Shown here: in pieces, positions 1 to 21,044 of the stretch
Layout of the letters: each line of letters starts with the position of its first letter
How positions within the stretch are numbered: the stretch's first letter is position 1
NCBI GenBank assembly: GCA_913055615.1
Contig: CAJXKK010000027.1
Coordinates: 1-34,729 of the forward strand
Reading direction: 5' to 3'
From: an uncultured Ectothiorhodospiraceae bacterium
Lineage (GTDB): Bacteria; Pseudomonadota; Gammaproteobacteria; XJ16; Halofilaceae
Length of the DNA: 34,729 nt
Program-made: the position numbers and the translations under genes
The notes under the pieces: model-generated
The model's database searches: none
Seen by the model: the letters and a program-made list of their open reading frames with translations, nothing else
What the model was told of the DNA's origin: nothing

Positions 1-3000
1 ACCATCGAGTCCTTCGACCCGGCCACGATGCCGCTCGACGGCATCCGCCTGATCGAGGCGAGCGCCGGCACGGGCAAGACCTTCAGTCTCGCGGGGCTGT
101 ACCTGCGGCTGATCGTCGAGAAACAACTCGACGTGCGCGAGATCCTGGTGATGACCTTTACGCGCGCCGCGACCCAGGAACTGCGTGAGCGCCTGCGGGC
201 ACGGCTGGCGATGGCGACCCGGGTCGCCGCCGAACCGCCGCGGAACGATCGCACCGACGCCGCCGAGGATTTCGCGGAGCGCGTCATCACAAACGCCGAT
301 GCCGACCGGGCGACCGTGGCGGCCCGCCTGCGGGACGCGGCCACGCGTGTGGACCAGGCGACGATCACGACCATTCACGGCTTTGCCCAGCGCGCCGCGG
401 GTGAGAACGCGTTCGAGAGCGCCTTGCCCTTCGATCGCGGCGAGCAGGTCGAGGATGCCGAGATCCAGCGGGAAGCTGCGGCGGATTACTGGCGGGCGCG
501 CGTGTTCGGGCAGCCGGCCCAGCAGGCGGGTGCGTTCGTCTCGCTGTGGGCCTCGCCGGAAGCGCTCTATCAGGACATCCGCGATGTGCTCGGCAAGCCC
601 CATGCGCACCTCATCCGCCCGGACGGCGCGGCGGTCGAGCGCGATCAGAAAAAGGCGCTCAAGCAGTGGGCCAACGAGCGCGACGCGTTTATCGAAACGC
701 TGGACAAGGCGCTCGAACACGGTGGGCTTCTGGCCGGGTCCACCCTGAAGACACAACTGGAGGCGGAAGGATCAGAGGCCATCGCGGCAGCGATTGATGC
801 CGGACTCGCGGGGACCAGCGATGGTTTCCCGGCACTGCCGGCCGTACTCGCCGACCTGCGCGATGAAGAGGGCGTCCGCAAGCACGCGAAGAAAGCGGCA
901 ATGAAATGGCTGCGGCCGCAGGATCTCAGGATTGTCCCGATGCTGGCCCGGTTACAGGTCAATGGCCGGATGGCGGCGGTAACGGCGGCGATCGACGCGA
1001 TTCGCACGTTGACCGCCCAACGTAAACGCGAACGGCGCCTGTTCAGTTACAACGACATGATCCTCGGACTTCACCAGGCGGTGACCGACCCGGGGGGCGG
1101 CCCTGCGCTCGCCGCGGCATTGCGACGGATCTGGCCGTGGGCGCTGGTCGATGAGTTCCAGGATACCGATCCGCTGCAGTACGAGATCCTGCAGCGGATT
1201 TATGGCGACGATGACGACGACGCCGATGTAGCCCGGATGGAGCGAAGCGGAATCCGGGACGCCCCGGACATGACATCCCGGATTCCGGCTTCGCCTTCAT
1301 CCGGGCTACGAAGCGGGCGCGGCACCGGCGGCCTGATCCTGATCGGCGATCCCAAACAGGCCATCTACGGCTTCCGCGGCGGCGATGTCTTCGCCTACCT
1401 CGATGCGGCCAACGATGCCCACGGCCGGTACGGCATGGACACAAATTTCCGCTCCACCGGTGCGGTCCTCAAGGGTGTCGGCGCGGTATTCGAGGCCGGT
1501 GGCGATGATGCCTTCGTGCTGGAGGGCATCGATTTTCGCCCCGTGAAGCCCGGGCGCAATGAGGGCGATCTACGCCTCGAACACGACGGTGCCGAACCCC
1601 CCGGCGTGACCGCGTGGTCCATTCCGGAAGACGCTGGCACCAGCAAGGGCGATGTACCAAAACGCATCGAGCGTGCGACCGTGGAGCGCATCGTCACCCT
1701 GATCGACGAAGGTGCTTTCGTAACGGCGGACAGCCAACGCCGTGATATCCGGCCGAGCGAGATCGCGGTCCTCGTGAACAGCAACCGCGAAGCGGCCGCG
1801 ATGCAGTCCGCGCTCGGCGAAGCCAACGTGCCTGCCGTCTGTATCCACCAGGACAGCGTCTTCACCCACGAAGCCGCGCATGACCTGCTGCAAATGCTGC
1901 GCGCCGCCGCAACCCCGTTCGACGCCCAGCGATTGCGGGTGGCGCTGACGACCGCCCTGTTCGGCTACCGAATGGGCGATCTGGTTGCACTCGACCAGGA
2001 CGAACACGCGTGGTCCGAGGCCACCCATCGCTTCCAGGAGGCCCATGTACGCTGGTCGCAGACTGGCGTGCAGGCCATGCTCGAACCATTGCTGCAGAAG
2101 GCCGCGGCACGCGTGGTCGCATTGACCGACGGCGATCGCCGGATCACGGACTTCCTGCACGTCGCCGATCTGCTCCAGCGCGCGGAACACGAGGTTTTCG
2201 GCATGGAGGGTCTCGTCCATTGGCTTGAGAACGCGATCCGCCGGGCCGACGACGGCGAGGTCGGGGATACCGATCGGGTGCGCCTCGCGGACGATGGCGA
2301 GCTCGTGCAGGTCACGACCGTGCACAAGGCCAAGGGCCTGCAGTTCCCGGTCGTGTTCGTGCCCTACTCGCCCTGGCTGGGGACCGGCGGCGGCAAGCCG
2401 AGCGACCCGCCGCTCGCCTTCCATGACGAAAACAATCAGGCCGTGGTCGATCTCGGCTCCGATACGATCGACGAGCACACTGGTCAGGCCGTGCGCGAAC
2501 GGCGTGCCGAACAGATCCGCTCACTCTATGTGGCCCTCACCCGCGCGGAACAAGCCTGCTTCTTCGTCCATGGCGCCGCCAACAACGCGGTCGACGGCCC
2601 GCTCGCCTGGCTGTTGCACAAGGATGATGGCGTGACGTCCGACGGCTGGCACGGCGGCAAGAAAATCCCTGAGTGGTTCAATGCGGCGAGCACGAACCAA
2701 CGCCTCGGTGAACTGGCGAACAACAGCGGCGGCGCATTGAAGGTGGAACCACTGCCTGATCCCGCCAGGAACACGCAGCTGCAGACGTCGACCGCCACAC
2801 TGGAACTCGGCCCGGCACGCAGCGACCTCCCCGCACCGCGCCAACCGTGGTCCGTATTCAGCTTCTCGCGGCTCGCCGGGCGCATGACCGGACCGACGGA
2901 GCCCACCGCCGGCGCGGATGACGAAACCACCACGGCCACACTGCCGGTTGGCCTTGATGAATCAGGCGATATCGCGGATGAGGTGATTACCCATCCGCGC

Positions 3001-3732: not shown

Positions 3733-3773
3733 GGCGGCGTATAAGAATAATGCCGCAACTGGAGCACACCCAC

Positions 3774-3934
3774 GTAGGCCGGCCCTGTCCGGCGCTTGCG
3801 TCGCGGAACGGATTTGCGACGAGGGTTGTGCGCCGGGCAATGCCGGCAGTGCGTGTGCAATGTGTGACCGCTAAGCCGGTGGAGATGCCCTTCGTCGGCA
3901 TTGCCTCCATTTCATTACGGCAAGGCCGGCCTAC
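3774..3934. repeat. REP-like element, family D (diverged copy)
   Basis: The element begins GTAGGCCGG and ends CCGGCCTAC, with GTAG at both outer ends. It contains the internal CCGGGCAATGCCGGCA that recurs as CCGGGGAATGCCGGCA in the copies at 13810-13942 and 23138-23269. At 161 bp it is about 28 bp longer than those copies and more diverged. Confidence 0.7.
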
Positions 3935-4017
3935 GGCGCTGCAGCCGGGCGCGACCACGTGGCCTCTTTTGTGTGGGCTGGATGCTCGTGGCTCGTCACC
4001 GGTACGGCCCAGCCACC

Positions 4018-4103
4018 GTCATTGCGAGGAGCGAAGCGACGAAGCAATCCAGACTCGTCGGCCTTGCAGAACGTCCGGATTGCTTCGCTTCGCTCGCAAT
4101 AAC
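4018..4103. repeat. Palindromic repeat, family F (ATTGCGAGGAGCGAAGC type)
   Basis: The left arm reads GTCATTGCGAGGAGCGAAGC and runs into GACGAAGCAATCC. The right arm is its imperfect reverse complement, GGATTGCTTCGCTTCGCTCG and then CAATAAC. The spacing gives an 86-bp inverted-repeat unit. It lacks the GTAG head of the other families. Similar ATTGCGAGGAGCGAAG repeats are dispersed in many bacterial genomes. Confidence 0.75.
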
Positions 4104-4222
4104 GGTATCGGCGTATCCCACGGATTCATCGATCGGAATCGGCCCGCCCGGATATCCGCAGGCGCAACCGTACTGCGGTGCCAGCATTCGACGTGCGTCT
4201 CACCAACCGGGAGTCACCACTC

Positions 4223-6040
4223 ATGAGCGCTCTGCCCGCCGCACTCCGGGAATCCCTCGAAGGCGAAGGCCTCCGCCCGGTGGATATCGCCCTGGCCGAC
4301 TGGGGCTGGCGCCACGGCGGTCAGCGGGCGGGGGCGCTCGGTCTCGCGCTGGCGAGCCACGCCATCGGACTCGGTCATACCTGCCTGCCGCTGAGCGCCC
4401 TGCGCGAAGCGATCGGCTCCGCATCCCGGCTCGTGAACGCCGAACGCTTCACGGAGGAGCTCGGAACGAACGCACTGGTCGCGCCCCCTGACGCGGATGC
4501 ACCCTTGCCGCTCATCCTCGATGGCGGCCACCTCTACCTGCAGCGCTACTGGATCTACGAGCGCCGTCTCGCTACGCGTCTGCGGGAACTGCTCGCCGCG
4601 TCACCGATGCCTGTCGATACCCAACGCCTCGGGCCGGATGGTGAACTGTTTTCCTGGGACTGGACCGGGGCCGGAGAGACCAACTGGCAGGCCGTGGCCG
4701 CATTCGTCGCCCAACGCCATCGCTTCGCCGTGATCTCCGGCGGCCCGGGCACAGGCAAAACCTACACCATCGTGCGCCTGATGCTGCAGCTGATCGAATC
4801 CGCACTCGCGAATGACGAACCCCCGCCCGTATTCCGTCTCGCAGCGCCGACCGGCAAGGCCGCCGCACGCATGATCGCGTCCGTCCGGGCGGGTCTGTCC
4901 CAACTGCATGCGTCAACGGAAGCCGCGCAACACCTGCCACACGACGCCACCACGCTGCATCGGCTGCTTCGGCTGCGGCGGGGCAGCACGGAACCGGGCC
5001 ATGACCGTGAACGACCGATCCCGGCGGACGTTGTCATCGTCGACGAGGCCTCGATGGTCGATCTGCCGATGATGGCCAAACTCGCCGACGCCGTTCCGGA
5101 TCATGCACGCCTGATCCTACTCGGCGACCGCTATCAGCTGGCCTCGGTCGAGAGCGGCGCCGTACTCGCGGACCTGTGCGAACCGGCCGGCGTCAACGAT
5201 TTCTCGAAAGAACAGTGCGCCGAGGCCGGCACACTGTTACCACAGGAGGACGGCGGCACAGGCCCATCCGCACTCGCCGATCACGTGGTCACCCTGCAGA
5301 CCAGCCACCGCTTCCATGCCGACAGCCCTATTGGCCGCCTTGCCGCCGCCATCAACGCCGGCGATGCCGAGGCCGTCGCGGAGGTCCTCAACGATCGCAC
5401 GGGCGAAGTCCGGGCGACCTTCGATACCGATACCACCAGCATCCAGCGACTGGTCACCGGCTTGGCCGATGCCTACTCGGCCCTGCATGAAGCGGAGAGC
5501 CCCGGATACGCCATCGACTCTCTGGAAGACATCCGACTGCTGACCGCCACACGCGTCGGCCCGCTCGGCAGTGAGACCATGAACCGGCGAATCGGTGCCA
5601 CGCTGGGCGAACGCTACGGATTCGATCCGGATACCCAGTGGTATCACGGGCGCCCGATCATGATCGTGCAGAACGAACCACGTGCCGGATTGTTCAATGG
5701 CGACGTGGGCGTGGTCTGGCATGACGCCGACGGTCACACCCGCGCATGGTTCCGCACCGAGGACGGCCTGCGCTCGTTCCATCCATCGGTATTGCCGAGA
5801 CATAGCACGGTCTACGCCATGACGATCCACAAGAGCCAGGGCTCGGAGTTCAAGGCCGTTTACCTCCTCCTGCCACAGGGGCAGTCCCGCGTGCTCACCC
5901 GGGAGCTGCTCTATACGGCCGTCACCCGCGCCCGGAACGTGCTTGAGGCATATGGTTCACATGAGGCGTGGCAAGCCGGTGTGCAACATAGGATCCAGCG
6001 GTATTCGGGGATTGGTGAGCGCTTGGCTGCGGCGGATTGA
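4223..6040 (+). CDS. recD: RecBCD enzyme subunit RecD
   Basis: RecD is the 5'-3' helicase of RecBCD. The ATG at 4223 is chosen over the upstream in-frame codon at 4178 because GGGAG lies 9 bp before it and the protein then starts MSALPAALRESL, giving 605 residues, the usual RecD length. Walker A GGPGTGKT is near residue 172, followed by the PTGKAAARM segment, Walker B VIVDEASMVD near residue 273 and LGDRYQLASVESGAVL. The C-terminal UvrD-like segments are MTIHKSQGSEF and LLYTAVTRAR. It follows recB on the same strand, is probably co-transcribed with it, and is the last gene before a strand switch. Confidence 0.95.
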   Translation: MSALPAALRESLEGEGLRPVDIALADWGWRHGGQRAGALGLALASHAIGLGHTCLPLSALREAIGSASRLVNAERFTEELGTNALVAPPDADAPLPLILDGGHLYLQRYWIYERRLATRLRELLAASPMPVDTQRLGPDGELFSWDWTGAGETNWQAVAAFVAQRHRFAVISGGPGTGKTYTIVRLMLQLIESALANDEPPPVFRLAAPTGKAAARMIASVRAGLSQLHASTEAAQHLPHDATTLHRLLRLRRGSTEPGHDRERPIPADVVIVDEASMVDLPMMAKLADAVPDHARLILLGDRYQLASVESGAVLADLCEPAGVNDFSKEQCAEAGTLLPQEDGGTGPSALADHVVTLQTSHRFHADSPIGRLAAAINAGDAEAVAEVLNDRTGEVRATFDTDTTSIQRLVTGLADAYSALHEAESPGYAIDSLEDIRLLTATRVGPLGSETMNRRIGATLGERYGFDPDTQWYHGRPIMIVQNEPRAGLFNGDVGVVWHDADGHTRAWFRTEDGLRSFHPSVLPRHSTVYAMTIHKSQGSEFKAVYLLLPQGQSRVLTRELLYTAVTRARNVLEAYGSHEAWQAGVQHRIQRYSGIGERLAAAD

Positions 6041-9761: not shown

Positions 9762-9920
9762 GAACCACAGATGAACACGGATGAACACGGATGGAGGCGC
9801 GTTCCGGGTTTGTATGCAGATTCCACCAGGAACGCATAGTCGCTTCGACAAGGCTTACACGCCACGGGGACATGAGTCCTTTGACCCTTATCTGTGTTTA
9901 TCTGTGTCCATGTGTGGTTC
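9762..9920. repeat. Long inverted repeat, family G (ACCACAGATGAACAC type)
   Basis: The left arm begins GAACCACAGATGAACACGG, with the unit GATGAACACG repeated. The right arm (9890-9920) is the imperfect reverse complement, ending CCATGTGTGGTTC. The arms enclose about 95 bp of non-coding DNA. I noticed no other copy in the window. Confidence 0.7.
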
Positions 9921-9940
9921 ATGAACGTCTCACGCACGAT

Positions 9941-9973
9941 CCCGGATTCCGCCTTCGGCTTCATCCGGGCTAC
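9941..9973 (-). repeat. Single REP-like unit, family A
   Basis: On the minus strand it reads GTAGCCCGGATGAAGCCGAA and ends ATCCGGG, matching one arm of the pair inside recB. It lies just downstream of the upstream permease stop in the ABC operon. Confidence 0.75.
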
Positions 9974-13969: not shown

Positions 13970-14004
13970 GTAGGCCGGTTTGCGACCGAAGGGAGCCTGC
14001 CGGC
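13970..14004 (+). repeat. Single REP-like arm, family E
   Basis: It reads GTAGGCCGGTTTGCGACCGA and ends GCCTGCCGGC, the reverse complement of the right arm of the family E copy at 20949-21044. It lies 17 bp beyond the radical SAM gene's stop. Confidence 0.75.
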
Positions 14005-16862: not shown

Positions 16863-16962
16863 CAGGCCGGCTTTTGCCGAAAGGCAACAGCCGCTCCTGC
16901 ACTTCGTTCCGGGCCGTACCCCCGTCCGCCGGCTGGCCTTCTTCGGTCGCAAACCGGCCTAT
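16863..16962. repeat. REP-like inverted pair, family E
   Basis: The left arm starts AGGCCGGCTTTTGCCGAAAG and the right arm ends TTCGGTCGCAAACCGGCCTA. It matches the copy at 20949-21044 in both arms and in the central GCCGGCTGGC. It fills most of the 246-bp gap between the AMMECR1 and transglycosylase genes. Confidence 0.8.
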
Positions 16963-20948: not shown

Positions 20949-21044
20949 GCAGGCCGGCTTTTACCGAAGGCAACGAGCCGACGGTTTCGGGTGTCCGGAG
21001 CCCGGAACCGCCGGCTGGCTCCCTTCGGTCGCAAGCCGGCCTAC
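20949..21044. repeat. REP-like inverted pair, family E
   Basis: The left arm starts GCAGGCCGGCTTTTACCGAA and the right arm ends CGGTCGCAAGCCGGCCTAC. Copies lie at 16863-16962 and, as a single arm, at 13970-14004. It starts 23 bp after the family B pair; together they fill the gap between the response regulator and the small secreted protein. Confidence 0.82.

Follow-up and report, generated by a model that had tools for sequence, protein, structure and literature searches.

An in-frame GTAG REP doublet in recB of an uncultured Ectothiorhodospiraceae bacterium is probably a tolerated insertion in the linker between helicase motifs II and III

The window analysed here, i.e. the whole stretch of 34,729 nucleotides from an uncultured Ectothiorhodospiraceae bacterium, starts within recB, given that the recB ORF of the closest species (termed G002 below) runs further upstream and overlaps the end of recC (Table 1). 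The truncated recB ORF nevertheless scores 755 bits against a curated cut-off of 696 for TIGR00609. An earlier note on this DNA had described an 82-bp REP-type inverted repeat lying in frame between helicase motifs II and III, and both its arms and the spanning ORF were recovered: the outer arms are GTAGCCCGGATGGAG (1228-1242) and CTTCATCCGGGCTAC (1295-1309), the inner ones lie at 1248-1259 and 1276-1287. The repeat consists of two GTAG-tagged REP palindromes placed head to head (REPIN/BIME), each unit starting with the GTAG tetranucleotide that marks one end of the short palindrome in GTAG-class REPs, followed by the CCCGGAT...ATCCGGG stem. Read along the coding strand, the 82-bp unit is open in two of its three frames and meets a stop, formed by the GTAG head, in the third. 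The frame in use reads VARMERSGIRDAPDMTSRIPASPSSGL, 27 amino acids with DEFQDTDP on one side and GDPKQAIY on the other, so that the element lies wholly within a real gene and leaves its frame intact, as in the intragenic REPs of Di Nocera et al. Within the window, GTAGCCCGGAT occurs exactly at 1228, 1299 (minus strand) and 9963 (minus strand) and at one more site with one mismatch, a number that was matched in none of 100 shuffles. The third of these exact sites belongs to the single unit that had been reported at 9941-9973; it is indeed one intergenic REP unit, although its span had to be corrected (Table 1).

Table 1. Features of the recB region and the single REP unit in the window
Feature	Position	Strand	Basis
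recB CDS, 5' end cut by window/contig start	28..3732	+	TIGR00609, E=1.8e-226; sister-species ORF continues upstream
Helicase motif II, DEFQDTDP	1150..1173	+	translation; E. coli RecB alignment
REP doublet (REPIN/BIME), head-to-head, RecB residues 401-427 (numbering from ATG at 28)	1228..1309	+	
Left REP unit, GTAG head + stem CCCGGAT...ATCCGGG	1228..1258	+	sequence
Right REP unit, inverted, GTAG head at 1309	1276..1309	-	sequence
Helicase motif III, GDPKQAIY	1345..1368	+	translation; invariant columns G440-Y447 of alignment A1
recD, downstream partner gene	4178..6040	+	TIGR01447, E=3.1e-155
Single intergenic REP-a unit, same family as recB pair	9939..9973	-	matches one REP unit

No in-frame REP of the tested types was found in recD. 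The gap between recB and recD holds a GTAGGCCGGCC palindrome pair and a CGTC-tagged type (CGTCATTGCGAGGAGCGAAGCGACGAAGCAATCC) at 3773-3935 and 4018-4107, and a REP-c copy likewise lies between recB and recD of G002 (L087:13081-13186). More REP-c copies are present in the window at 13970-14004, 16864-16961 and 20951-21044, none of them in a convincing coding frame. A short tandem phrase (cagatgaacacggatgaacacggatg) was seen in the intergenic region upstream of the single REP (9768-9793).

The occurrence of the recB palindrome is far beyond chance, since a search of the same genome (G000; 3.0 Mb in 87 contigs), which the earlier note had proposed together with a search for a RAYT transposase, returned 91 BLAST matches to the 82-bp unit, each palindrome being counted in both orientations. 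About 47 clusters of the recB type (REP-a) and a sister type (REP-b) are present, many of them 73-99 bp long; they thus show the many dispersed copies, often as inverted doublets, by which REPs and REPINs are recognized. The search for a RAYT was also successful: an ORF on contig C11 scores as a REP-associated tyrosine transposase (NF047646, E=4.7e-57) and is embedded in a REP-a array with units on both sides (1105-1452 and 2087-2280 of locus L202), which, as read from the sequence, is the anatomy of a REPtron. By analogy with what is known of this family, the recB copy was probably moved by this RAYT. The GTAG head, the palindromic stem, the inverted doublets and a RAYT gene with the same REP around it are shared with RAYT-mobilised REPINs (Bertels and Rainey 2011, PMC3116915; TnpAREP, PMC8266576), which are, however, described as extragenic, whereas the recB copy is intragenic. 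Two further RAYT-like genes are flanked by GTAGGCCGG REPs (L205, G000:C8:40570-41088; L207, G000:C11:53482-53862), and the former carries an internal TAG, which together with the other RAYTs points to the coexistence of several REPtrons of differing state in this genome. The search of G002 yielded no RAYT flanked by REP-b; the RAYTs found there have other REP types around them.

The recB linker was compared among three genomes, namely G000 and its two congeners G001 and G002, by the alignment with close relatives that had been suggested as a check. G001, with 74% amino acid identity in recB, has a short motif II-III linker without insert (GPVAVDVAAEERARGG) and no match to REP-a or REP-b; homologues from other families lack the segment as well. 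G002, whose recB is 92% identical at the protein level, carries a different element at the same linker point, an 89-bp REP-b pair (GTAGGTTGGGTTGA...) with its GTAG heads pointing inward, while those of the G000 pair point outward. The similarity of the rest of recB does not extend to the non-REP bases of the linker, which differ between the two species as well. In G000, REP-a outnumbers REP-b (91 versus 14 matches), and in G002 REP-b outnumbers REP-a (68 versus 31), so that the pair in each recB is of the type that prevails in the genome concerned. On these three genomes, the simplest reading would be two separate insertions, although an ancestral REP may instead have been replaced. The insert had been put at roughly 28 residues; its in-frame nature stands, while the size depends on the reference, with 27 amino acids added relative to the nearest relative without insert and about 35 relative to the usual linker of the class. 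The idea that the repeat was domesticated as protein is not borne out, given that the recB insert peptide is private to one species rather than conserved across relatives and that the sister species has a different REP in its place.

Outside the linker, recB shows a dN/dS of 0.13 between G000 and G002, and the same value was obtained for recC outside its REP, which indicates that both genes are being kept working. The linker from DEFQDT to GDPKQ mostly comprises 27-33 residues in our class sample, and 36-52 residues without REPs in a genus of 20 species that we take to be Xanthomonas, the family having been judged from a 16S pattern and the genus partly from the REP type. A linker of 94 residues without a REP hairpin was seen in RecB of one other genus (L184 and L188; G555 and G264). 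Long linkers in other families (44-94 amino acids) were considered as REP remnants and rejected, as they contain no comparable GTAG hairpin. An AlphaFold2 model of RecB, based on 37 RecBs, reached a mean pLDDT of 80.5 and had E. coli RecB chains as its best matches. Residues 399-404 and 407-431 received pLDDT values below 50 in it; they are framed by a helix (382-392) and a strand (435-440), both well predicted. The insert maps between residues 403 and 408 of E. coli RecB (1w36 numbering). The 27 residues are presumably translated as extra loop, and according to the model their effect is most likely a longer disordered surface loop. The earlier note had placed the insertion at an ATPase-core surface; the site proved to be a naturally length-variable, predicted-disordered loop, and disturbed catalysis is not implied. 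Because the length of this loop varies naturally, AlphaFold2 predicts disorder and RecB is under purifying selection, recB seems to be a working gene that tolerates the REP pair.

A second in-frame REP-a was identified in recC (TIGR01450, E=1.2e-248; locus L094, G000:C24:39839-39914), on a contig that, judged by the distance to the contig end, probably adjoins that of the window; recC directly precedes recB in G002. This recC REP is common to G000 and G002, in which its codon position and frame agree (DVARMEPxAESGEPAxRIPASPSSGL), is absent from G001 and lies between about residues 252 and 295 in E. coli numbering (1w36). The dN/dS of the shared insert is 0.54 over only 26 codons with about six changes in all, which would fit weak constraint, and the shared recC insert appears from these comparisons to be a better candidate for long-term retention than the one in recB.

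In-frame REPs were counted by inspecting the surroundings of the listed REP matches for a spanning ORF with coding-like codon usage on both sides. Among at least 47 REP-a/b clusters in G000 and at least 50 in G002, recB and recC were the only genes in which an in-frame copy was found. The census of REP-c was confined to G000, where at least 41 clusters gave no convincing intragenic case, so that two of the 88 clusters listed for the three REP types of this genome are in frame inside genes. All these numbers are minima, each genome search having scored up to 40 candidate regions, and a few intragenic REPs may have escaped detection, given that an earlier form of the codon test recovered only 61% of control genic positions. 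Three ambiguous REP-c candidates were read by eye and discarded, one lying upstream of an apparent dehydrogenase start and two within arginine-rich, probably spurious frames; the first codon test also gave a weak in-gene call in G002 (L156), which the spanning-ORF test did not uphold. The chance that both inserts fall in recB and recC (7.2 kb) is near 7e-6 under a uniform distribution over an assumed coding length of about 2.6 Mb and with the gene pair named beforehand; for the second insert taken by itself it is about 0.3%. These are rough figures that take no account of long genes with loose loops being easier to hit. We counted recBCD as named beforehand since it had been named in the 2013 paper on intragenic REPs (PMC3733652).

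In that study, Di Nocera, De Gregorio and Rocco reported GTAG REPs in frame within genes, many of them DNA-repair genes including recBCD, with REP dimers encoding 20-30 amino acids; recB of X. campestris and that of X. oryzae bear different REPs at roughly the same site (PMC3733652). A palindrome in recB is therefore less unusual than the earlier note had assumed, and the present case, an in-frame GTAG dimer in a recBCD gene with different REPs at one recB site in two species, belongs to the published kind, differing by a new lineage, a new REP sequence and the RecB loop concerned. Its contribution to the literature lies in recB and recC both carrying in-frame REPs and being the only genes found to do so in two species, with different REPs in one recB loop; some repair genes had already been described as the sole REP-tagged genes of their species, in a paper that also speculated about altered repair and mutator states (PMC3733652). 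Rickettsia palindromic elements likewise occupy in-frame positions in protein genes, according to PMC3733652, but they concern another organism and REP class and occur in many genes, whereas the in-frame copies described here were found in recB and recC only.

In the Xanthomonas-like genus, most RecBs of the 20 species carry GTAGGAGCGGCTTCAGCCGCGAC-type REPs, often paired, in a loop N-terminal to TIHGF. We considered whether this is the same RecB loop and rejected it, as the REP is in another loop and none was seen in the motif II-III linkers. The left REP shows a four-fold-site conservation of 0.91 versus 0.77 in the rest of the gene, compared between subgroups in which sites and species are non-independent.

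Taken as a whole, we are fairly confident that a GTAG REP doublet was inserted into the recB linker, probably mobilised by a RAYT, and is tolerated as a nearly neutral addition. One of the about 47 REP-a/b clusters of G000 would have been derived through the activity of the RAYT on contig C11, inserted into the motif II-III linker most simply after the split from G002, and would persist because the loop tolerates it at little cost to RecB. In this lineage, the tolerant loops of recB and recC are then probably sites at which REPs repeatedly land or survive, because G002 has a different REP at the same recB loop and both species share the older recC REP. An ancestral REP array in the recB linker that each species exchanged or trimmed in its own way would also account for a pair at the same point in both, and the inward GTAG heads in G002, unlike those of head-to-head pairs, could result from such trimming; we nevertheless regard this history as rather doubtful, since neither the REP types nor the non-REP linker bases show evident similarity in otherwise 92% identical recB genes, and each REP matches the commoner type of its genome. 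An assembly or sequencing artefact that wrongly joined a repeat into recB is highly improbable. REPs are repeats that break assemblies and the contig does start in recB, but the insert lies 1.2 kb inside the contig with the RecB reading frame continuing through both flanks, and the sister genome, assembled separately, shows another REP at this recB point and the same REP in recC.

One point speaks against plain tolerance: many proteins have loose loops, yet in-frame REPs were found in recB and recC only, among the 47 and 50 clusters of the two species. The REPs might be non-neutral, altering the amount or activity of RecBCD via an mRNA hairpin or a surface peptide and being kept as altered RecBCD was favoured, along the lines of what Di Nocera et al. 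speculated for mutator states. This would agree with the restriction to recB and recC, the retention of the recC insert in both species, the recB REPs and their four-fold-site conservation across most of the Xanthomonas-like genus, and the finding that an excess of RecB is harmful in E. coli, where the protein is very scarce and under tight control (PMC12342828). We consider it unlikely, however, given that the recB insert differs between the sisters so that no particular peptide is conserved, that the recC segment appears weakly constrained and that the insertion sites are loops whose length varies elsewhere in the absence of REPs. Our default explanation is that loose loops tolerate the inserts, with selection on RecBCD as the interesting alternative.

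There is, in our estimate, only a small probability that recB and recC are preferred REP hosts in which the inserts change RecBCD dosage or behaviour and thereby favour the REP or a more recombination-permissive cell; were this true, REPs would repeatedly tune the enzyme that processes DNA ends. The 2013 paper suggested that REPs do not enter repair genes fortuitously; should in-frame REPs really survive in no genes but those of two subunits of a single repair enzyme, and this in two species and with two types of REP, nature would have provided a clean test of that idea. The inserts also mark loops of RecB and RecC that accept about 27 extra residues.

In the recB of most Xanthomonas-like species (L067-L086, N-terminal RecB loop), rare GTA and GGA codons are retained in the left REP, a sequence pattern that suggests conservation at the DNA level or re-copying.
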